This document shows positions 26,466 to 35,327 of a stretch of 64,000 nucleotides of DNA, in pieces (the stretch's first letter is position 1; the number at the start of each line of letters is the position of its first letter). Under the pieces are notes generated by a model. It made no database searches and was not told the DNA's origin. It saw only the letters and a program-made list of their open reading frames with translations. Origin of the DNA: Streptosporangium sandarakinum (GTDB taxonomy: Bacteria > Actinomycetota > Actinomycetes > Streptosporangiales > Streptosporangiaceae). The stretch lies in assembly GCF_013409935.1 (NCBI RefSeq), contig NZ_JACCCO010000001.1, forward strand, positions 620,001 through 684,000, read 5' to 3'. The position numbers were made by a program, and so were the translations under genes.

Positions 26466-26792
26466 ATGTACCGCCAGGGTGACATCCTGATCGTTCCCGT
26501 CGCCGAGGAGGCCGTGCCGCCTTCGGTCAGGACCGCGCCGTCCGCGCCGCGCGACGCCCGGGGCCGCCTAGTCCTGGCCCTGGGCGAGGCCACCGGCCAC
26601 GCCCACGCGGTGGTGGGCCCGGGCACGCTCGTCCGCGGCCTGCACCCGATGGACCCCGACCACCTGCATCTGCCCGGCGGCGGGCGCGTCGTCCACGAGG
26701 AGCACGCCGCGATCCCCCTGCCCAGGGGGTGGTACCGCGTGCAGCGCCAGCGCGAGTACATCCCCGGCGCCTTCCGCGTCGTCGCCGACTGA
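26466..26792 (+). CDS. Small conserved protein of unknown function (partner of DUF6745 gene)
   Basis: A 108-residue soluble protein starting MYRQGDILIVPV and containing EATGHAHAVVGPG and LPGGGRVVHEEHAAIPLPRG. It has six His residues but no recognised catalytic motif. Strong GAGGAG ribosome-binding site nine bases before the ATG. It lies 13 bases before the DUF6745 gene, so the two form an operon. The beta-rich pattern with repeated Gly-His turns suggests a small barrel or cupin-like fold, but I cannot assign a function. Confidence 0.8.
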   Translation: MYRQGDILIVPVAEEAVPPSVRTAPSAPRDARGRLVLALGEATGHAHAVVGPGTLVRGLHPMDPDHLHLPGGGRVVHEEHAAIPLPRGWYRVQRQREYIPGAFRVVAD

Positions 26793-26805
26793 GGAGTCCC
26801 CGAGC

Positions 26806-27837
26806 ATGACCGTCACCACCGAATTCGCCGACGTCCTGGCCGCCGCCGCGCAGCGCTGGGAGGAGGTCGCCTTCCGGGCCGGGCCCGCCGATCGTCCCGA
26901 GGCGGAGGCCGGCGTACGGCTGGCCTACCGGGCCGCCGGGCTGGCCGAGCCCGGGGAGATCGTCTGGGCCGACTCCCCCCTCGCCGGCGCCCGGGCCGCC
27001 GCCCTGCTCGACACCGGCCGGTCCGTGCGTGACGCGGTGCGGACCGGCCCGTGGCAACGCGCCAGGGCGGAGGCGTACGCCGCCCTGGGCCCGACGGGCT
27101 GGGCGCTGGCCTGGGCCCTCACCGGAGGTCGGCTCTGGGACCCGGTGAACGGGATCGTGACCCGGATCCGCCAGGGCGTCGCCGCCGCGGAGGAGTCGCA
27201 GACCGCCGCCGCGGCGCTGCGCGCCTCGACCCTGGACGCCGTGCTGGGCCAGCACGACGCGCCGTGGCTGGCGCTGTTCGACGCCCTGGACCGGCCGGAG
27301 ACGGAGGGGCTCGCCCGGGTCGCGCGGTCGGCGGGCTGGTGGTGGCCGTTCGAGCGGGTGGCCGTCGTGTGCGAGCGCCCCGCCGAACTGCACCGCGACG
27401 GGATGTCGCGCCTGCACCGCGCCGGCGGTCCGGCGCTGTCGTTCCCCGACGGTTTCGCCGTGCACGCCTGGGGCGGCATGCCGGTCCCCGCCGGCTTCGC
27501 CGCCACCATGGCGGCGCTGACCGTGCAGCGGATCGACGCCGAGGAGAACGCCGAGCTGCGCCGGGTCATGCTGGAGCACTTCGGCTACGACCGCTACCTC
27601 GCCGAGTCCGGCGCCGTCCCCGTGCACCGCGACGAGGCGGGCGTGCTGTGGCGGATCGTCCTGCCGGACGACGAGCCGGTGACGATGGTCGAGGTGGTCA
27701 ACTCCACCGCCGAACCCGACGGAACCTTCCGCAGATACTGGCTGCGGGTCCCGCCGTCCACCCGCACCGCCCGCGAGGGCGTGGCCTGGACCTTCGGCAT
27801 GACCGAGACCGACTACCGGCCGGTCAGGGAGACTTGA
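26806..27837 (+). CDS. DUF6745 domain-containing protein
   Basis: A 343-residue soluble protein. The C-terminal part (ENAELRRVMLEHFGYDRYL, then the WLRVPPSTRTAREGVAWTFG stretch) matches the DUF6745 family as I know it. The N-terminal half is Ala-rich and helical with WWWPFERVAVVCERP in the middle. No signal peptide or membrane segment. The family has no established function. Its convergent neighbour is the STM4011-type radical SAM gene, 104 bases away. Confidence 0.8.
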   Translation: MTVTTEFADVLAAAAQRWEEVAFRAGPADRPEAEAGVRLAYRAAGLAEPGEIVWADSPLAGARAAALLDTGRSVRDAVRTGPWQRARAEAYAALGPTGWALAWALTGGRLWDPVNGIVTRIRQGVAAAEESQTAAAALRASTLDAVLGQHDAPWLALFDALDRPETEGLARVARSAGWWWPFERVAVVCERPAELHRDGMSRLHRAGGPALSFPDGFAVHAWGGMPVPAGFAATMAALTVQRIDAEENAELRRVMLEHFGYDRYLAESGAVPVHRDEAGVLWRIVLPDDEPVTMVEVVNSTAEPDGTFRRYWLRVPPSTRTAREGVAWTFGMTETDYRPVRET

Positions 27838-27941
27838 GCCCGGCGGCGCCGACCCCGCCGGGCGGGCGCGCGACGCGGGGTCCGGTCACGCGCGCCCGTC
27901 CGGCCGGTGCGCCGGCGAGGGCCCCGATCCGGCCTTCGGTC

Positions 27942-28940
27942 TCAGCGGGCCCGGCCGTGGAAGGCGGGGACACGCTCCAGGATCCCCCCGGCGAAGACGT
28001 CGTAGAGGCCGGTGGGCTCCAGGTGCACGTAGCCGATGTGGCAGTCGCACAGGGCGGCCGGGCACGGCCGGGCGCGCGGCCGGAACGTCCCGTCGTAGAG
28101 GTTGCCGAGGACTTCCGGGACGAAGTGGCAGCGCCGTACGGTGCCCTCGCCGTCCACCGAGATCACGGTGTCCCCCGTACGGCACGGCCGTCCGGCGCTG
28201 CGGTGCGGCGTGCGGCTGTAGGAGAAGAGCGGGTCGAGCCGCGTCCACTCGGCCGCCTCGGCGTCGGTGTAGGAGTGCCCCTCGGCGGCGTTGACCCACA
28301 GGTAGACCTCGGCGGGCAGGTCGTCACGGAGCCGGCGGGCGTGGTCCAGGTGCTCGGGCAGCCCCACGACGCCCACGCTGAAGCGGACGCCCATCCCGGT
28401 CAGGTCGCGGCACCGGCCGAGGAACCGCTCGTAGCCGACCTGCCCGGGGTGGTAGGTGACCCACAGGGCGAGGGTGCCGAGATCGGCCTCGCCCAGCCAG
28501 CCGGTGCGGCAGCTGAGGTTGGTCTGGATGGCGACCCGCCGGACGTGCGGCAGGTGGCTGAGCCCGACCATCGCCCGCCGGTACCACGATCGGACGAGCC
28601 CCTCGCCCCAGGGGGTGAACAGCACCGAGACGGGGTGGTCGCGCTCCGCCGCCCACCGGGTGAACCGCTCCAGCGCCGCCCGGTCGCGGCGCAGCCGGGC
28701 GGGGTCGTCGCGGCGCTTGGCGAACGGGCAGTAGGGGCAGTCGTAGTCGCAGCTGGACAGGGGCCCCCGGTAGAGGACGGTCAGGTGGCCGGCGTCGCGG
28801 CCGGCCGCGGCACGGTCCGGCGCCGTGTCGCCGCGGTCACACGCGCCGGGCGCGGCACGGTCGTGTGCGGCGCGATCGTGTGCGGCACGGTCGTGCACCG
28901 TGAGGACGGGCAGCTCGCGGGGTCGTTCTCGCTCGTTCAC
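27942..28940 (-). CDS. STM4011-family radical SAM protein
   Basis: A 332-residue radical SAM enzyme. The [4Fe-4S] motif is CDYDCPYC (CxxxCxxC, about residue 65). After the SAM barrel there are five more cysteines (RPCRTG, RRCHF, CPAALCDC), as in proteins carrying a SPASM/twitch-like auxiliary cluster. Residues about 12-25 are a triplicated HDRAA linker encoded by a 15-base repeat. GTG start overlapping the STM4012-type stop (GTGA). It is the last gene of the five-gene operon. The reaction is unknown. Confidence 0.88.
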   Translation of the reverse strand: MNERERPRELPVLTVHDRAAHDRAAHDRAAPGACDRGDTAPDRAAAGRDAGHLTVLYRGPLSSCDYDCPYCPFAKRRDDPARLRRDRAALERFTRWAAERDHPVSVLFTPWGEGLVRSWYRRAMVGLSHLPHVRRVAIQTNLSCRTGWLGEADLGTLALWVTYHPGQVGYERFLGRCRDLTGMGVRFSVGVVGLPEHLDHARRLRDDLPAEVYLWVNAAEGHSYTDAEAAEWTRLDPLFSYSRTPHRSAGRPCRTGDTVISVDGEGTVRRCHFVPEVLGNLYDGTFRPRARPCPAALCDCHIGYVHLEPTGLYDVFAGGILERVPAFHGRAR

Positions 28941-30313
28941 CGCGCCTCGTATCCCGCCATCAGCTCCCGGACCGCGCCGGAGAACAGCGCCGGGCCGATC
29001 GCGTCGGAGTGCGCCAACCCTTCCGCGGTGAGCCGCGGCCACCCGGCGTCCGTCTCCAGCCACCCCCGGGCGGCGAGGCGGTCGAACTCGGAGCCGAAGT
29101 CGGCCGTCGCCTCGGTGCCGAAACGCGCCCGGTAGGCGGCCGGGTCGAGCCCCTCGGCCTGGAGCAGCGACTGGATGAGATGGCGGCGGCGGCGCTCGTC
29201 GTCCCCCAGGCGGAACCCCACGTTGGCGGCGGTGAAGTCACCGGGCGCCAGCCGTACGTAGTCGTCGATGATGGCGCGCACCTGGCGGGTGCCGACCGCG
29301 TACTCGTGCGAGTAGTGCAGGGCGGAGGTGTAGGAGCGGGCGCCGCAGCCGAGCCCGACCATGCCGTCGCTCTGGCAGCAGTAGCCGGTCGTGTGTGCGG
29401 GGGCCGCCGTGCGGGCGGGGTCCGGCAGCCGGAACATCCGCATCGACACCTGCTCGTACCCCGCGGCGAGCAGGTGGTCGCGTCCCCGCCGGTAAAGGCC
29501 CAGCCGGTGGTCGTCCCAGTCGCGCGCGCGGCGGCCGAGACCGGTGAGCGGCCGGACGTACAGCGGGTAGAGGTAGATCTCCTCGGGTTTCCAGGCGAGC
29601 GCCGCGTCCAGCGAGTGACGCCACGACCGGGCGTCCTGCCCGTCGATGCCGTAGATGAGGTCGAGGTTGAGCGTCTCGAACCCGGCCTCCCTGATCCGGC
29701 CGAGCGCCGCCTCGACCTCCGCGCGCCGCTGCGGCCGGACCGCCGCGCGGGCCTCGGCGTCGATGAAGCTCTGCACGCCGATCGAGATCCGGGTGGTGCC
29801 CCGCTCGGCCAGGACCGCCAGGCGGTCGGCGGTCGCGGTCGCCGGTGAGGTCTCCACCGACAGCGGCACGGTCCGCAGGTCGACGCCCATGGTCCGCTCG
29901 GCCAGGTCGAACAGCCGGGTGAGTTCGGCCGCGCTCAGGTAGGTGGGGGTGCCGCCGCCGACGGCCGCGACCGCGAACACCGGTCCGCCCGGGGCTCCGC
30001 CGGGGGCGCCGGGGGCAGCGCCGGAAGCACTGTCCAGGGCGGCGTCCAGGGCCTCCCGTACGGCGCCGGCCTGGCGCTCCAGGGCGTCCAGGTAGGCGGC
30101 GACGAGCTCGTCCGGCGCGCCGGTCCGGGTGAACAGGTTGCAGAACCCGCAGCGCATCTCGCAGAACGGGATGTGCAGGTAGAGGGAGAGGCTGTCCATC
30201 GGCTCGCCCTCCCACACCCGCCGCAGCGGCGGGCGCGGATCCAGCGGCCGGTAGGCCGTCTTGTGCGGGTAGGCGTAGACGTATCCCTGGTAGGGGCTCG
30301 TGGCCGTCACCAT
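28937..30313 (-). CDS. STM4012-family radical SAM protein (HemW/HemN-like fold)
   Basis: A 458-residue protein. The motif CEMRCGFC (about residue 50) follows SLYLHIPF, as in HemN/HemW-type enzymes, and a HemN C-terminal-like domain follows the barrel. It differs from HemW by the N-terminal extension (SPYQGYVYAYPHKTAYRPL) and by the operon context, which assigns it to the STM4012 family. The ATG overlaps the end of the STM4013-type gene by seven bases. No function is established; a role in heme synthesis is not supported by the neighbours. Confidence 0.9.
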   Translation of the reverse strand: MVTATSPYQGYVYAYPHKTAYRPLDPRPPLRRVWEGEPMDSLSLYLHIPFCEMRCGFCNLFTRTGAPDELVAAYLDALERQAGAVREALDAALDSASGAAPGAPGGAPGGPVFAVAAVGGGTPTYLSAAELTRLFDLAERTMGVDLRTVPLSVETSPATATADRLAVLAERGTTRISIGVQSFIDAEARAAVRPQRRAEVEAALGRIREAGFETLNLDLIYGIDGQDARSWRHSLDAALAWKPEEIYLYPLYVRPLTGLGRRARDWDDHRLGLYRRGRDHLLAAGYEQVSMRMFRLPDPARTAAPAHTTGYCCQSDGMVGLGCGARSYTSALHYSHEYAVGTRQVRAIIDDYVRLAPGDFTAANVGFRLGDDERRRRHLIQSLLQAEGLDPAAYRARFGTEATADFGSEFDRLAARGWLETDAGWPRLTAEGLAHSDAIGPALFSGAVRELMAGYEAR

Positions 30314-31110
30314 GCTCCCTGTCTCATCGTGAACTCCCCGTAGGGGACGGTCCAGACGGCCTCGTGGCCGATCCGGTGCCCGACGTATCCGTCGTCGCCG
30401 TAGGCGGTGCCGTGGTCGGAACAGACGATCGCGAAGCCGGGCCGCCTGGCGCTCATCAGGGTGAACAGCCTGCCGATGTGCCGATCGACGTACTCCAGCG
30501 CGGCGGCGTGGCTGCGCAGGTCGTCGCCGTGCTCACGGGCCGCACCCGGTAGGTGGAACCAGTTCGGCTGGTGCAGCGCCGAGACGTTGACGAACAGGAA
30601 CACCGGTCCCCGGGCGCCCCGCACCACCCGCTCGGCGCACTCGATCTGCGCCTCGAACGAGGTCGGCGAGGTCACCCCGAACGCCGGCTCCCAGTGGCTC
30701 TCGGCGAACAGTCCGGGAAGCGCGGATCCGAGCGGGGTGAGCTTGTTGAAGAAGCCCACCCCTCCCACGCAGACCGTGTGGTATCCGGCCCGGGCCAGCC
30801 CGCCGGGCAGGTCCGCCGCGTCGAACACCCAGGTGCCCTCGGCCGTCGTCTCGCTGCCGGGGAACGCCGCCGCGAACAGCCGGGGGTGCGGCCCCGGCGC
30901 GGCCGGGGTGGGCAGGAAACCGGCCAGGATCGCGGCGTGCGCTGCATAGGTGAAGCTGCCGGGGCTGTGCCGGCGTTCCCATCGCCCGCCGGGCAGCGCC
31001 CGGGCCAGGGTGGGCAGCCTCCCCGCCCTGATCAGCTCGTCGGCCACGTCGTAGCGGAGCGTGTCGAGCGTCACCAGCAGCAGGTCGTGGCTGCCCACGA
31101 TCGCGTTCAT
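30307..31110 (-). CDS. STM4013/SEN3800-family hydrolase (alkaline phosphatase/sulfatase fold)
   Basis: A 267-residue protein starting MNAIVGSHDLLLVTLDTLRYD. TLDTLRYD is the metal/nucleophile strand of the alkaline-phosphatase superfamily. CSDHGTAYGDDGYVGHRIGH supplies the second metal site. It lacks the Cys-x-Pro-x-Arg sulfatase signature, so a phosphatase or phosphodiesterase is likelier than a sulfatase. The start may be further upstream: GTG codons at 31194 and in the following 15-base repeats are in frame, and the first overlaps the previous stop as GTGA. Confidence 0.85.
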   Translation of the reverse strand: MNAIVGSHDLLLVTLDTLRYDVADELIRAGRLPTLARALPGGRWERRHSPGSFTYAAHAAILAGFLPTPAAPGPHPRLFAAAFPGSETTAEGTWVFDAADLPGGLARAGYHTVCVGGVGFFNKLTPLGSALPGLFAESHWEPAFGVTSPTSFEAQIECAERVVRGARGPVFLFVNVSALHQPNWFHLPGAAREHGDDLRSHAAALEYVDRHIGRLFTLMSARRPGFAIVCSDHGTAYGDDGYVGHRIGHEAVWTVPYGEFTMRQGAW

Positions 31111-31153
31111 GTCCCGGGTCGCGCCCGGCGCGCCGCCCCGGCCGCCCCTCGTC

Positions 31154-31200
31154 CCGCCGCTCACCGCGTCACCGCTCACCGTGTCACCGCTCACCGTGTC
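31154..31200 (-). repeat. 15-bp repeats carrying stop/start codons between STM4014- and STM4013-type genes
   Basis: About three copies of GTGACACGGTGAGCG on the minus strand. The stop of the upstream gene is the TGA in the first copy. In the frame of the next gene each copy offers a GTG start, so repeat number could alter which start is used. Confidence 0.75.
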
Positions 31201-32567
31201 ACCGCCGCGTGGGAGACGGCCGCGTGGCCTGCGGACGGGTGATCCGCGGGCGAGCGACCCGCGGGCGGATGGCCCGCGGAAGGATGACCGGCGGACGGGC
31301 GGCCCGCGGGCGCGCCGGCGGGCGGGTGGGCGGGCACGTGGCGGGCGAGGACCGCCCGGACCTGGGCCGCGTAGGTGTCGAGCCCCTCGGCCGCGCCTCC
31401 CGGCAGGCCCGTCAGGCCGGGCAGCAGGTCGCCGAAGGCGTTGACCTCCGCCACGGCGACGCCGCGCCAGTCGGCGCCCACCATCACGTCCACCCCGGCG
31501 CACAGGCTGCCGGGAAAGCACGCCGCGGCCCGCGCGCAGGCGTCCAGGACCCGATCCCAGCCCCGCGGGCCGAGCCGCGCCCGGACCGCGCCGAGGTCGC
31601 CGCGCACGCCGCCGAGGTGCAGGTTCGTCATGGGGGCGCGGGCGGCGCGGACGACCGCGTGGGTGGGTGTGCCGCCGACGGTGACCACCCGCAGGTCGAT
31701 CACCCGGCCGCCGAAGCCCGCCTTGGGGAACCACCGCTCCACGTGGAGACCGTCGGCGGCCAGCAGGTCGATGATCGCCGCCACCTCGTCCTCGTCCCCG
31801 TAGGAACGCACCCGGAGCGAGTTGTGCAGTTCCACCGCGGCCCGCCCGTCTCCGCGCGGCCCTCCCCCGGTCCGACCGTCCCCGCGAGGCCCGCCTCCAG
31901 CCCGCCCGTCTCCACGTGGCCCGCTTCCGGCCCGCTCGCCCTCGTACGGCCCGGCCCCGGCCGCTCCGCCCCGGATCAGCTCCGCCGAGGTCACGGCCTT
32001 GATCCTGGACCCGGCGACCTGAAGGGCGACGACCCCGGAGGCCGAGGAGCCGTGGGCGGACTTGACGAACACCCTCCGCCAGCCGGCCCGGTCCATCCGC
32101 TCGCGCAGTTCGGCGTAGCCGCCGACCGGCCCGGGCAGGGCGGGCGGCACCGGCACCCCGGCCGCCGCCAGCCTCGCGTGGCACCGCCGTTTGTCGAACA
32201 TCACCGCGATCTCGTCGACGTCGGCGAGCAGTACCGCGCCCGGGGTGCGGGCGACGGCCCGGCGGATCCGCTCCAGCCCGGCTGTCAGGGCCGCGTGCCA
32301 GGCGGCTCCCCCGCCGGCCCGGGTCGGCCGTCCGGGGCCGCGCAGCAGCGCGTCGGCCTCGGCGTCCTGGCCGGGCGACTCGATCCGCACGAGCGTCCCC
32401 GGCTCGATCCGGATCTCCTCGTCCCGCAGCACGCGGGTCCAGGGGACGACCGCGGGCGCGGGCAGGCCGTACCGGGCGCAGGCGGCGGCGAACAGGGTCA
32501 CCCTGCGGTCGCCGGGCGTCCCGACGACGGCCGTCCGGACCGGCGTGCGATCACCGTGTTCGGTCAC
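31191..32567 (-). CDS. STM4014-family ATP-grasp-like protein
   Basis: A 458-residue protein with ATP-grasp features: GWRRVFVKSAHGSSASGVVAL (Lys and Gly-rich loop, near residue 170) and the metal-binding AVAEVNAFGD near residue 385. Such enzymes join a carboxylate to an amine or thiol using ATP. A Gly/Arg/Asp-rich stretch of PRGDGRAGG repeats interrupts the domain near residue 220. The C-terminal 50 residues are PAGHPSAG-like repeats that run into the stop. GTG start with AAGGA eight bases upstream. Confidence 0.82.
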   Translation of the reverse strand: MTEHGDRTPVRTAVVGTPGDRRVTLFAAACARYGLPAPAVVPWTRVLRDEEIRIEPGTLVRIESPGQDAEADALLRGPGRPTRAGGGAAWHAALTAGLERIRRAVARTPGAVLLADVDEIAVMFDKRRCHARLAAAGVPVPPALPGPVGGYAELRERMDRAGWRRVFVKSAHGSSASGVVALQVAGSRIKAVTSAELIRGGAAGAGPYEGERAGSGPRGDGRAGGGPRGDGRTGGGPRGDGRAAVELHNSLRVRSYGDEDEVAAIIDLLAADGLHVERWFPKAGFGGRVIDLRVVTVGGTPTHAVVRAARAPMTNLHLGGVRGDLGAVRARLGPRGWDRVLDACARAAACFPGSLCAGVDVMVGADWRGVAVAEVNAFGDLLPGLTGLPGGAAEGLDTYAAQVRAVLARHVPAHPPAGAPAGRPSAGHPSAGHPPAGRSPADHPSAGHAAVSHAAVTR

Positions 32568-32649
32568 CTGGCGTCCTTACGAGGTCGGGGTCGGGGTCGG
32601 GATCGGAGCCCGGATCCGAGTCGGAGCCGGGAGGGAGCGGCGGGAGCGG

Positions 32650-33603
32650 TCACTCGGCCACCGCGACGTAACGCCAGTCGTCGTCGGGATCCTCCTGCTC
32701 CGACAGGTCGACCTCGACGCCGGTGCCGGCGAAGGCCGCCCGGACCCGCTCGGTCATCTCGTCGCTCAGGTAGTGGTGGTGCAGGTCGAGGCGCGCGAGG
32801 TGGGTCAGCGGCTGGCCGGACAGCAAGGCCTCGGCACCGGCGTCGGTCAGCGTGCCCATCGACAGCGCCAGCGACGTGAGCCGGGCCACCACCGGCGCCG
32901 ACGCCACCGCCGCGGCGATCTCGTCCTGGATCTCGCTGTCCTGCAGGCCCAGGTGGCGCAGGGCGGGCAGTCGCTCGCCGGACAGGATCGGCGCCAGGTC
33001 CGCCACGGTGGCGTCTCCGCCGTACTCCGAGACGCCCAGCCACAGCTCCAGGTACTCCAGGGCGGGCAGGTCGGATGCCGCGACGCCGCGCACGACCTGG
33101 GCGGGCAGCCCGCCCGTCTCGAACCGGAGCACCCTGAGGTTGCCGTGGCGGACCGGGCTCAGCGTGAGCCCGGTGCCCCCGCGCACCTCCAGCCGCTCCA
33201 GCAGCGGGAACGCCTCCAGCAGCGGGGTGACGTCGCTCTGCTGGATCCAGGAGATCTCGCACTCCTCCGACGGCATCGCGCCGAGGAACAGGGAACGCAG
33301 GGCCGGGAGGCGGTCGGCGTTGCGGGCGAGCAGCTCGACGACCCGCGAGCTGCCCGTGTCGTAGGCCTCCTCCCAGCCGCCGATGATGAGCGCCTTCACC
33401 GCGGCGGTGTCCGTCTTCTCCAGGAAGGTGGTGAACCGCTGCTCGTAGCCCTCACCCGAGTCGTAAACGCTCTCCGCGATCCGCCACGCCGCCTGGTCGG
33501 CGGCGGGCGTCCGGTCGCCGGAGTCCGGGATCGCGATCGGCAGGCCGGCGTAGGTGCCGTCGTAGAGACCGTCGACGCGGTCGGTGAACTCGGTGTGGTC
33601 CAT
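32650..33603 (-). CDS. STM4015-family leucine-rich-repeat protein
   Basis: A 317-residue acidic protein and the first gene of the operon. From about residue 90 it has irregular leucine-rich repeats (LPALRSLFLG, FPLLERLEVRGG, LPALEYLELWLG, LPALRHLGLQDS, LTHLARLDLHHHYL), suggesting a curved binding surface. No signal peptide. The ATG has GGAG seven bases upstream. In this five-gene set it is the probable scaffold or target-recognition part, or a substrate of the radical SAM enzymes. This is inference. Confidence 0.88.
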   Translation of the reverse strand: MDHTEFTDRVDGLYDGTYAGLPIAIPDSGDRTPAADQAAWRIAESVYDSGEGYEQRFTTFLEKTDTAAVKALIIGGWEEAYDTGSSRVVELLARNADRLPALRSLFLGAMPSEECEISWIQQSDVTPLLEAFPLLERLEVRGGTGLTLSPVRHGNLRVLRFETGGLPAQVVRGVAASDLPALEYLELWLGVSEYGGDATVADLAPILSGERLPALRHLGLQDSEIQDEIAAAVASAPVVARLTSLALSMGTLTDAGAEALLSGQPLTHLARLDLHHHYLSDEMTERVRAAFAGTGVEVDLSEQEDPDDDWRYVAVAE

Positions 33604-33879
33604 CGGGGGCTCCCGTCAGCTGGAATGCGGCAGAAGACGTCCTACCAGAGATCGCCGACACTCCAGGAATCGCGGCCCCCGCCGGCGTCGGGAGGGGAGC
33701 GGCGGCGGGGGTCCCGAACGCCCTCCCCCGCCCGGAAGCGGGATCTCCCCGGAGGCGTCCGGTGACCGGCGGCACCCCTCCGGGGACATCGGGTGACCGG
33801 CGGCGGGTCTCCGTTTCCGGCCGCGCGGGCGGCGAGCCGCAAACACCGGCGGCGAGCCGGAACAACCGCGGAACCCCGG

Positions 33880-33894
33880 TGATTGTGACAATCA
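33880..33894. promoter_or_regulatory. Palindrome overlapping the MFS start codon
   Basis: TGATTG-TGA-CAATCA, a perfect inverted repeat whose last base is the A of the ATG. It looks like a repressor site, though no regulator gene adjoins. The rest of the 33604-33893 gap is GC-rich, with direct repeats GGTGACCGGCGGC (from 33760 and 33792) and GGCGGCGAGCCG (from 33829 and 33848). Confidence 0.5.
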
Positions 33895-35327
33895 TGGACA
33901 ACGGTCATCTCCGGCTCCGTTCGGCCGCCGGCCGGTGGGTGCTCACCGCCACCGTGCTCGGCTCCGGCATCGCGCTGCTGGACGGCACGGTCGTGAACGT
34001 GGCACTCCCCGCGCTCGGCCGCGACCTGGACGCCGACATGGCGGGCCTGCAGTGGACCGTCAACGCCTACACCCTCACCCTGGCCGGCCTGATCCTGCTG
34101 GGCGGCTCACTGGGCGACCGGTACGGCAGGCGCCGGGTCTTCCTGGTCGGCGTGGTGTGGTTCGCGCTCGCCTCGGCCGCGTGCGGCCTGGCGCCCGGGG
34201 TGGAGGCGCTGGCCGCGGCCCGCGCGCTGCAGGGTGTCGGCGGCGCCCTGCTGACCCCCGGGTCGCTGGCGATCATCCAGTCGTCCTTCGCCCCCGAGGA
34301 CCGGCCCCGCGCGATCGGCGCCTGGTCGGGGCTGGGCGGGGTAGCGGCGGCCGTCGGGCCGCTGCTGGGCGGCTGGCTGGTGGAGACGGCCGGTTGGCGC
34401 TGGGTGTTCCTGATCAACCTGCCGCTGGCCGCGCTCGTGGTGGCGGTGACCGTACGGCACGTGCCCGAGAGCCGGGACGCCGGAGCCACCGGGCGGTTCG
34501 ACGTGCTCGGCGCGGCGCTGGCCGCGCTGGCGCTGGCCGGGATCACCTACGGTCTGATCGGCCTGTCGGCGCCCTGGATCGTGGCGGGCGCGGCGCTGGG
34601 CGCGGTGTTCGCCTGGCTGGAGGTCAGGCGCTCACCGGACGCGCTCGTGCCGATCGGGGTGTTCGCCTCGCCGGTCTTCGTCGCGGTCAACGCCGTCACG
34701 CTGGTCATGTACGCCGCGATGGGCGTGGTGTTCTTCCTGCTCGTCGTCCAGCTCCAGGTCTCGGCCGGATTCTCGCCGATGGTCGCCGGATCGGCGATGA
34801 TCCCGATCACCGTGCTGATGCTGCTGCTGTCGCCGGCGGCGGGCGAGCTGGCCAGGCGGATCGGCCCGCGCGTCCCGATGGCGGGCGGCATCCTGCTGTG
34901 CGCCGCCGCGCTGGTGCCGATGTCGTGGATCGGCCCCGGCTCCTCCTATGTGACGGGCGTGCTGCTGCCGGTGTCGCTGTTCGGCCTGGGCCTGTCGGCG
35001 GCGGTGGCTCCGCTCACCGCCACCGTGCTGGCCAGCGCCGCCGACCGCTACGCGGGCGTGGCCAGCGGCGTCAACAACGCCCTGGCCAGGACCGGCGGGC
35101 TGCTGGCGGTCGCCGCGATCCCGCCCCTGGTGGGCCTGACCGGCGACGCCCTGCGGGACCCCACGGCCTTCACCGCCGGGTTCCGCGTGACGATGCTGGT
35201 CGGCGCGGTGATGATGGCCGCCGCCGCGGTGGCCGCCTTCTGGACCATCCGCCGCAACGTCCTGGCCGGCGAGGACGGCGCGCCGCTCAACGGTGCACCA
35301 GCCGGGCCAGGCCCGGATAGTCGGTGA
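33894..35327 (+). CDS. MFS multidrug exporter, DHA2 (EmrB/QacA) family
   Basis: A 477-residue drug:proton antiporter with about 14 predicted helices. Motif D1 reads LDGTVVNVALPALG, motif A GGSLGDRYGRRRVF (about residue 65) and motif C LLTPGSLAIIQSSF follows. The ATG at 33894 starts the conserved part and has no clear ribosome-binding site, so it may be translated leaderless. The 3' end overlaps the convergent glycolipid-binding gene by 41 bases. The substrate cannot be predicted. Confidence 0.94.
   Translation: MDNGHLRLRSAAGRWVLTATVLGSGIALLDGTVVNVALPALGRDLDADMAGLQWTVNAYTLTLAGLILLGGSLGDRYGRRRVFLVGVVWFALASAACGLAPGVEALAAARALQGVGGALLTPGSLAIIQSSFAPEDRPRAIGAWSGLGGVAAAVGPLLGGWLVETAGWRWVFLINLPLAALVVAVTVRHVPESRDAGATGRFDVLGAALAALALAGITYGLIGLSAPWIVAGAALGAVFAWLEVRRSPDALVPIGVFASPVFVAVNAVTLVMYAAMGVVFFLLVVQLQVSAGFSPMVAGSAMIPITVLMLLLSPAAGELARRIGPRVPMAGGILLCAAALVPMSWIGPGSSYVTGVLLPVSLFGLGLSAAVAPLTATVLASAADRYAGVASGVNNALARTGGLLAVAAIPPLVGLTGDALRDPTAFTAGFRVTMLVGAVMMAAAAVAAFWTIRRNVLAGEDGAPLNGAPAGPGPDSR

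Follow-up and report, generated by a model that had tools for sequence, protein, structure and literature searches.

A leucine-rich repeat protein with an invariant C-terminal glutamate in the STM4011-STM4015 radical SAM operon: a candidate tail-modification system

Introduction

What is made, or modified, by a bacterial operon in which two radical S-adenosylmethionine (SAM) enzymes stand beside an ATP-grasp ligase, a hydrolase and a leucine-rich repeat (LRR) protein? The question is raised by a locus at positions 26466-33603 of a 64,000-nucleotide stretch of DNA (the window, whose coordinates are used here) from Streptosporangium sandarakinum contig NZ_JACCCO010000001.1. Its five core genes belong to families that are annotated in many genomes, including Salmonella, under the locus-tag names STM4011 to STM4015 only. 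Facing them is a pair of genes for a 108-residue protein and a DUF6745 protein. An original prediction, made from the sequence, had proposed that the locus synthesizes a small modified metabolite or peptide, or that it modifies the LRR protein. Here, we describe an invariant residue at the very end of the LRR protein STM4015 and weigh what it implies; in our judgment the chances are about even that the five-gene core is a tail-modification system with carrier-like logic.

The seven genes lie at the positions and on the strands first described:

32650..33603, minus strand: STM4015 family LRR protein, 317 residues, ending ...DDDWRYVAVAE (NF038076, 408.9 bits, cut-off 275)
32650..32715, minus strand: codons for the acidic linker and C-terminal tail of STM4015 (last ~21 residues) with the stop codon (per-position counts over 153 copies)
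31191..32567, minus strand: STM4014 family ATP-grasp ligase, LysX/RimK type, 458 residues, GTG start (NF038074, 408 bits, cut-off 175)
30307..31110, minus strand: STM4013 family hydrolase of the alkaline phosphatase superfamily, 267 residues (NF038075, 403.6 bits, cut-off 250)
28937..30313, minus strand: STM4012 family HemN-like radical SAM protein, 458 residues (PRK08208, 622.1 bits, cut-off 380)
27942..28940 (start inferred), minus strand: STM4011 family radical SAM protein with a Cys-rich C-terminal domain, ~332 residues (NF038073, 392.8 bits, cut-off 200)
26466..26792, plus strand: 108-residue protein, first gene of the accessory pair (alignment A3, 24 rows)
26806..27837, plus strand: DUF6745 protein, second gene of the accessory pair, 343 residues (PF20530, 364.4 bits, gathering score 27)

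Each of the five core proteins exceeds its own curated NCBIfam cut-off, which confirms the predicted families, and NF038076 is the sole NCBIfam match of the window STM4015. The earlier labels "ATP-grasp-like" and "alkaline-phosphatase-fold" are likewise backed by profile searches of solved structures. STM4013 and STM4012 overlap by 7 bases, STM4011 probably starts at a GTG at 28940 that overlaps the end of STM4012, and 13 bases separate the members of the convergent pair. A search with PADLOC models gave one weak match, STM4012 to PDC-M51A (E 3.5e-5, 87 residues, in the radical SAM region), and no match for the other six proteins. The five families had been said to lack an established function. 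In the literature searched, which mostly excludes subscription journals and preprints, STM4011-4015 occur in just two papers, each with a single passing table entry and no pathway assignment, DUF6745 and SEN3800 are unmentioned, and no match combines these enzyme types with LRR terms; a mixed query led only to the paper on 3-thia-amino acids.

The C-terminal tail of STM4015

We assembled STM4015 sequences from three collections. For the first, we fetched 80 regions around STM4015 genes, which together with the window make 81 actinomycete loci. The profile behind that set includes the tail, and we therefore recounted in a second set, retrieved by way of STM4011 (the best 80 of 458 in order of their similarity to Paenibacillus, a ranking that explains the 51 Bacillota among them). 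Nine copies come from plasmids. Frames scoring below 150 bits in the 81-locus set and below 60 bits in the STM4011-found set were dropped before counting. The raw count of 243 includes two genes seen twice across collections, leaving 241 distinct sequences.

All 241 end in glutamate. Within the 81 actinomycete loci this holds for 153 of 153 STM4015 copies, as against 24 of the 854 other called genes, a comparison set that was produced by a simple GC-based caller (genes of more than 120 residues) and includes some shadow frames. Every STM4015 copy in the STM4011-found sample is Glu-terminal as well, including those of Acaryochloris, Blastocatellia, Undibacterium and Paenibacillus, and the last residue (E317 in the window) is invariant in the 28 rows of alignment A4, which span six bacterial groups.

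Most of the information lies in the last six residues: Y/F at position -6, V/T/I at -5, A at -4, V at -3, S/A/G at -2 and E at -1. In the 81 loci, position -6 is Y, F or W in 152 of 153 copies, -3 is V in 140 and -4 is A in 131. A pattern written after the tails had been seen matches 121 of 124 called STM4015 genes and none of 1557 other called genes. The tails of distant homologues (Salmonella MNAMYTE, Bacteroides YYPMITE, Paenibacillus RYPSLTE, Deinococcus RYVALGE, Methylobacterium RSIAVSE) vary upstream of the last residue; thus, only the terminal Glu never changes, and -6 is almost always aromatic (237 of 241 distinct copies).

That aromatic residue bears on the first alternative, in which STM4015 would be the precursor of a ribosomally synthesized and post-translationally modified peptide (RiPP), with the LRR body as leader and a C-terminal core that is modified or cross-linked and then cut off as a peptide or redox cofactor. 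Pathways of the pyrroloquinoline quinone (PQQ) and mycofactocin type have an obligatory Tyr in the modified core. In STM4015, by contrast, only the terminal Glu is invariant, and the remaining four copies have V, S, S or N at -6 (Salmonella and Methylobacterium among them), so an obligatory Tyr chemistry does not suit every member, as far as position -6 is concerned. The enzymes of the operon, considered below, speak for a RiPP, which on balance we regard as unlikely.

Between the last LRR strand and the tail runs a linker whose length varies from 26 to 87 residues among the 241 copies and which is 45% Asp/Glu, compared with 16% in the STM4015 body. Among 140 pairs of paralogues from the same locus, identity is 75% over the last six residues, 64% over the body and 18% over the linker. 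The LRR body, and not just the tail, is well conserved across phyla (alignment A4). A conserved body, a variable and flexible linker and an invariant end are what a swinging-arm carrier would require, whereas the conservation of the body exceeds what is expected of a RiPP leader.

STM4015 is frequently multicopy: at least two copies occur in 37 of the 81 loci, and arrays reach seven. Multiple paralogues per locus are less expected of a swinging-arm carrier and count against that assignment. They are more easily accommodated by permanent modification, in which a cap or an extension would be added to the terminal Glu and the LRR protein so altered would be the functional end product (perhaps a sensor or regulator that exists in several versions), since one modification could then be applied to several proteins. 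Copies that stand apart from the enzymes (L085, L090 and L091) also keep the terminal Glu, as this alternative would have it. On the other hand, the LRR surface is conserved rather than diversified among paralogues and phyla, as one would sooner expect of a dock for constant enzymes than of a protein that recognizes many partners, and a plain extension would hardly seem to call for four enzymes. We consider permanent modification improbable in absolute terms, yet it ranks next after an amino-group-carrier-like swinging arm, which by analogy is the most likely role of STM4015.

The ligase and its partner enzymes

Profile searches of the PDB with STM4014 retrieved LysX (4.2e-5) and RimK (1.1e-4). 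For its predicted fold, the top nine entries by Z score are all ArgX/LysX and RimK (22.8-21.6), and a Foldseek search with the model placed first an ArgX solved with LysW and third the graspetide ligase PsnB. STM4014 is thus predicted to have an ATP-grasp fold closest to LysX/ArgX/RimK, by a small margin: other ATP-grasp enzymes score close behind, which weakens the case for a carrier-loading ligase. The model of the window STM4014 has a low-confidence C-terminal extension. It also has a Gly/Arg-rich insertion at about residues 205-240, again of low model confidence and absent from the other rows of alignment A1.

The excerpts of PMC10433800 and PMC9303977 that we consulted describe the C-terminal Glu of the carrier as the residue to which LysX/ArgX-type enzymes link amino groups, through its gamma-carboxyl; the corresponding part of PMC4741518 describes RimK as attaching Glu to the C-terminus of ribosomal protein S6 (RpsF). 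The nearest solved relatives of STM4014 therefore act on a C-terminal Glu or a protein C-terminus. This, together with the Glu tail, lends partial support to the predicted modification of the LRR protein. That RimK is among these relatives also agrees with permanent modification.

A further alternative is that the tail is recognized non-covalently, as a C-terminal signal for enzyme assembly or for a protease, while the enzymes act on a free metabolite. C-terminal motifs of such length are common docking or degradation signals, and the tail chemistry advanced here is a proposal from sequence. Against such a docking peptide, which we think quite improbable, the one invariant residue is that on which a LysX/RimK-type ligase would act, and a ligase of this type is encoded next to it.

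Both radical SAM enzymes retain CxxxCxxC (75 of 75 STM4012 frames and 75 of 75 STM4011 frames), and STM4011 has five further invariant Cys. The sole PDB match of STM4011 is SkfB (E 9.1e-4), a peptide-modifying radical SAM enzyme. This match supports a tail-modification system. It also favors a RiPP, as do the third rank of PsnB for STM4014, the prevalent aromatic residue at -6, and the general picture of two radical SAM enzymes and an ATP-grasp enzyme beside a multicopy protein with a conserved C-terminus. The core nevertheless lacks a protease gene, and we identified no short precursor of the graspetide or sactipeptide type, short open reading frames not having been searched systematically. 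The STM4013 profile matches nucleotide pyrophosphatase/phosphodiesterase and sulfatase structures. Residues D16, F53-T54, D232-H233 and H249 are invariant in 17 aligned rows, and these conserved Asp, Thr and His positions would fit a metal-dependent hydrolase.

Distribution and order of the five-gene core

We surveyed a class sample of 394 genomes and a family sample of 200. STM4015 scores above its cut-off in 56 of the 394 and 97 of the 200. STM4014 does so in 55 of the class genomes, every one of them among the 56 with STM4015; the sole STM4015 genome without it, G361, is an assembly of 1310 contigs. This co-occurrence supports a partnership of the two proteins.

The complete five-gene set is present in 74 of the 81 actinomycete loci, all of which were fetched for their STM4015, and gene order is kept in other phyla; the association exceeds chance. 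The annotated order is the same in plasmid records from Methylobacterium, three Deinococcus, Paenibacillus and Salmonella. In an unclassified bacterium (L223), STM4014 and STM4015 lie on the strand opposite to the rest, and a Bacteroides record has STM4015, STM4014 and STM4011 annotated, its STM4013 being no more than a weakly scoring piece (73 bits). Among the STM4011-found loci (best 80 of 458), 78 contain STM4015, and the remaining two are short contigs.

Seven loci fall short of the full set (L085, L090, L091, L108, L121, L124 and L130). We searched seven genomes for the enzymes, those of six of these loci and G361, and located STM4013 and STM4014 elsewhere or nearby in six; in G361 neither was found. 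In the L124 genome STM4014 is on another contig. At L108 (9253-10554), STM4015 is accompanied by a short C-terminal DUF6745 fragment and no further core gene; this is a decayed locus, and a different contig of the genome carries STM4014 and STM4013 intact. Since the enzymes sit elsewhere in the genome where STM4015 stands apart, these cases support a tail-modification system.

Two plasmid loci depart from the common form. In Bacteroides finegoldii (L142, 6873-7946), STM4015 carries an extra N-terminal stretch, which we take to be a WGR domain; no STM4012 is annotated there and STM4013 is a short piece. A Streptomyces albidoflavus plasmid (L138, 7738-9901) encodes a paralogue of STM4013 but none of the other four families; its neighbors are a NUDIX hydrolase and, by annotation, a lasso peptide biosynthesis B2 protein.

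A proposed mechanism

From these observations we infer a sequence of chemical steps and an amino-bearing cargo. Judging from its sequence, STM4015 probably serves the two radical SAM enzymes as carrier or substrate. It would consist of an LRR docking domain and a flexible acidic arm that ends in the invariant Glu. By analogy with LysX/ArgX and RimK, we propose that STM4014, using ATP, would activate the terminal Glu carboxylate and couple it with an amino-bearing group. The LRR body would serve as a dock for the enzymes, and the acidic arm would present its loaded tip to the hydrolase and to both radical SAM enzymes. STM4012 (HemN-like) and STM4011 (SPASM-like) may then act on the attached group or on residues of the tail, and STM4013, as a metal-dependent hydrolase, may remove a phosphate or sulfate ester or trim the product.

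The accessory 108-residue/DUF6745 pair

The pair had originally been included in the system on proximity alone. Recurrent linkage to the five genes now argues for that inclusion. The window DUF6745 gene is the only DUF6745 match in its genome. A scan of the 394 class genomes, which scored at most seven candidates per genome, gave DUF6745 matches to E 0.001 in 48. Strong matches (above 300 bits; 314-400) number 32 in 32 genomes, and all lie on the same contig as STM4015 and within 8 kb of it, as judged by comparing positions by eye. Weaker matches (229 bits or less) are located elsewhere and were treated as a separate paralogue group; one of 228.8 bits is in a genome (G406) that has no STM4015. 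Of the 56 genomes in which STM4015 exceeds its cut-off, 24 gave no strong match.

In the 81 actinomycete loci, DUF6745 is present in 59 and the 108-residue gene in 55. The pair lies 3' of STM4011 and convergent in 45 of these loci, and 5' of STM4015 and divergent in 13. It is upstream on the same strand in Methylobacterium, downstream and convergent in three Deinococcus, and after STM4011 on the same strand in L223. The pair is thus kept through at least four arrangements, which argues for a functional link with the core.

The linkage is not universal. Among loci of the STM4011 scan (best 80 of 458), the pair occurs in none of the 51 Bacillota loci, compared with 22 of the 29 others, and no pair lies beside the operon in the Paenibacillus, Salmonella and Bacteroides records. 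It also occurs on its own: in Deinococcus ficus and Skermanella the five genes are absent within 9 kb, cyanophage LMM01 encodes an adjacent pair (gp175 and gp174) without them, and gp37 and gp38 of a Mycobacterium prophage form a similar pair. Because it is recurrently linked to the core, yet neither universal nor confined to it, we consider the pair an accessory module rather than a constant member of the system, and infer that it acts as a lineage-restricted helper.

The 108-residue protein has no Pfam match to E 0.1 and no NCBIfam match to E 0.001; it matches one PHROG of unknown function (2.7e-13). Alignment A3 shows invariant His and Glu residues. The protein ends in an invariant Asp in 55 of 55 linked homologues and in two phage homologues, and so joins STM4015 in having an acidic C-terminus that is invariant. 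The N-terminal part of DUF6745 proteins from outside the actinomycetes (L133-L136) resembles short leucine-rich repeats, while that of the window protein is helical. A gene for a VWA-domain protein directly follows the pair in Deinococcus ficus (L140, 9404-11263), and another lies near STM4015 in Deinococcus taeanensis (L134, 2284-4302).

Other neighboring genes

A gene for a DHA2-type major facilitator superfamily (MFS) transporter (33762-35327) is divergent from STM4015 in the window. A gene of this type is divergent and less than 500 bases from STM4015 in 18 of the 81 loci, and a DHA2 efflux gene lies two genes upstream of STM4015 on the Paenibacillus plasmid. The transporter is a possible exporter. 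We set it aside as a system member, as it looks lineage-restricted and antisense shadow frames from the gene caller blur the group. A P450-like group found in 20 loci was set aside on the same grounds.

Relation to known systems and significance

The closest parallel is with the amino-group carrier systems (LysW with LysX/ArgX, and AmCP clusters such as Vzb22), which also combine a carrier that has a conserved C-terminal Glu with a dedicated ATP-grasp ligase. In the portions of PMC10433800 and PMC9303977 consulted, the conserved terminal Glu of LysW is part of the C-terminal motif EDWGE. Here, however, the carrier would be a 317-residue LRR protein and not a small zinc protein, and its motif is (W)RYVAVxE-like (RYVAVAE in the window) instead of EDWGE. 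It is accompanied by a hydrolase and two radical SAM enzymes, and the operon lacks the kinase, reductase, aminotransferase and releasing peptidase of that pathway. By analogy, the locus would work like an amino-group carrier system, yet it is not a member of that group, as its carrier is not of the LysW type.

Other systems share single elements. In RimK/S6 glutamylation, an ATP-grasp enzyme with a close fold match to STM4014 acts at a protein C-terminus, but there are no radical SAM partners and the substrate is a ribosomal protein rather than an operon-encoded LRR protein. The radical SAM and ATP-grasp enzymes of RiPP systems (SkfB, PsnB) are of similar classes, whereas their substrates are short precursor peptides and not a large folded LRR protein, and the core encodes no maturation protease. 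In Pearlins, the scaffold peptides of PEARL systems, an excerpt of PMC9303977 describes a reusable scaffold whose C-terminus is the site of assembly of 3-thia-amino acids; there, an aminoacyl-tRNA-dependent ligase does the loading, while here it would presumably be the ATP-grasp enzyme.

The families were known by name. What is new is the invariant terminal Glu of STM4015, its pairing with a LysX/RimK-like ligase, the paralogue arrays, and the recurrent accessory DUF6745 pair. We tentatively suggest, as a view that falls short of even chances, that STM4015 could be the first LRR-based carrier, on whose Glu STM4014 would load a group for the radical SAM enzymes to build into a metabolite or cofactor, with the phage-related DUF6745 pair as a lineage-specific partner. 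Such a pathway would extend across Actinomycetota, Deinococcota, Bacillota, Pseudomonadota, Bacteroidota, Cyanobacteriota and Acidobacteriota.

With an invariant Glu next to a LysX/RimK-like ligase, these families of "function unknown" acquire a hypothesis that hinges on a single residue. DUF6745 and its 108-residue partner, so far anonymous, can now be described as a defined accessory module, one that is also phage-borne. If the proposal is true, the operon would represent a new class of carrier protein or protein-tail modification driven by radical enzymes, and the tail and the arrays would offer a genome-mining handle for a product that has so far not been looked for.

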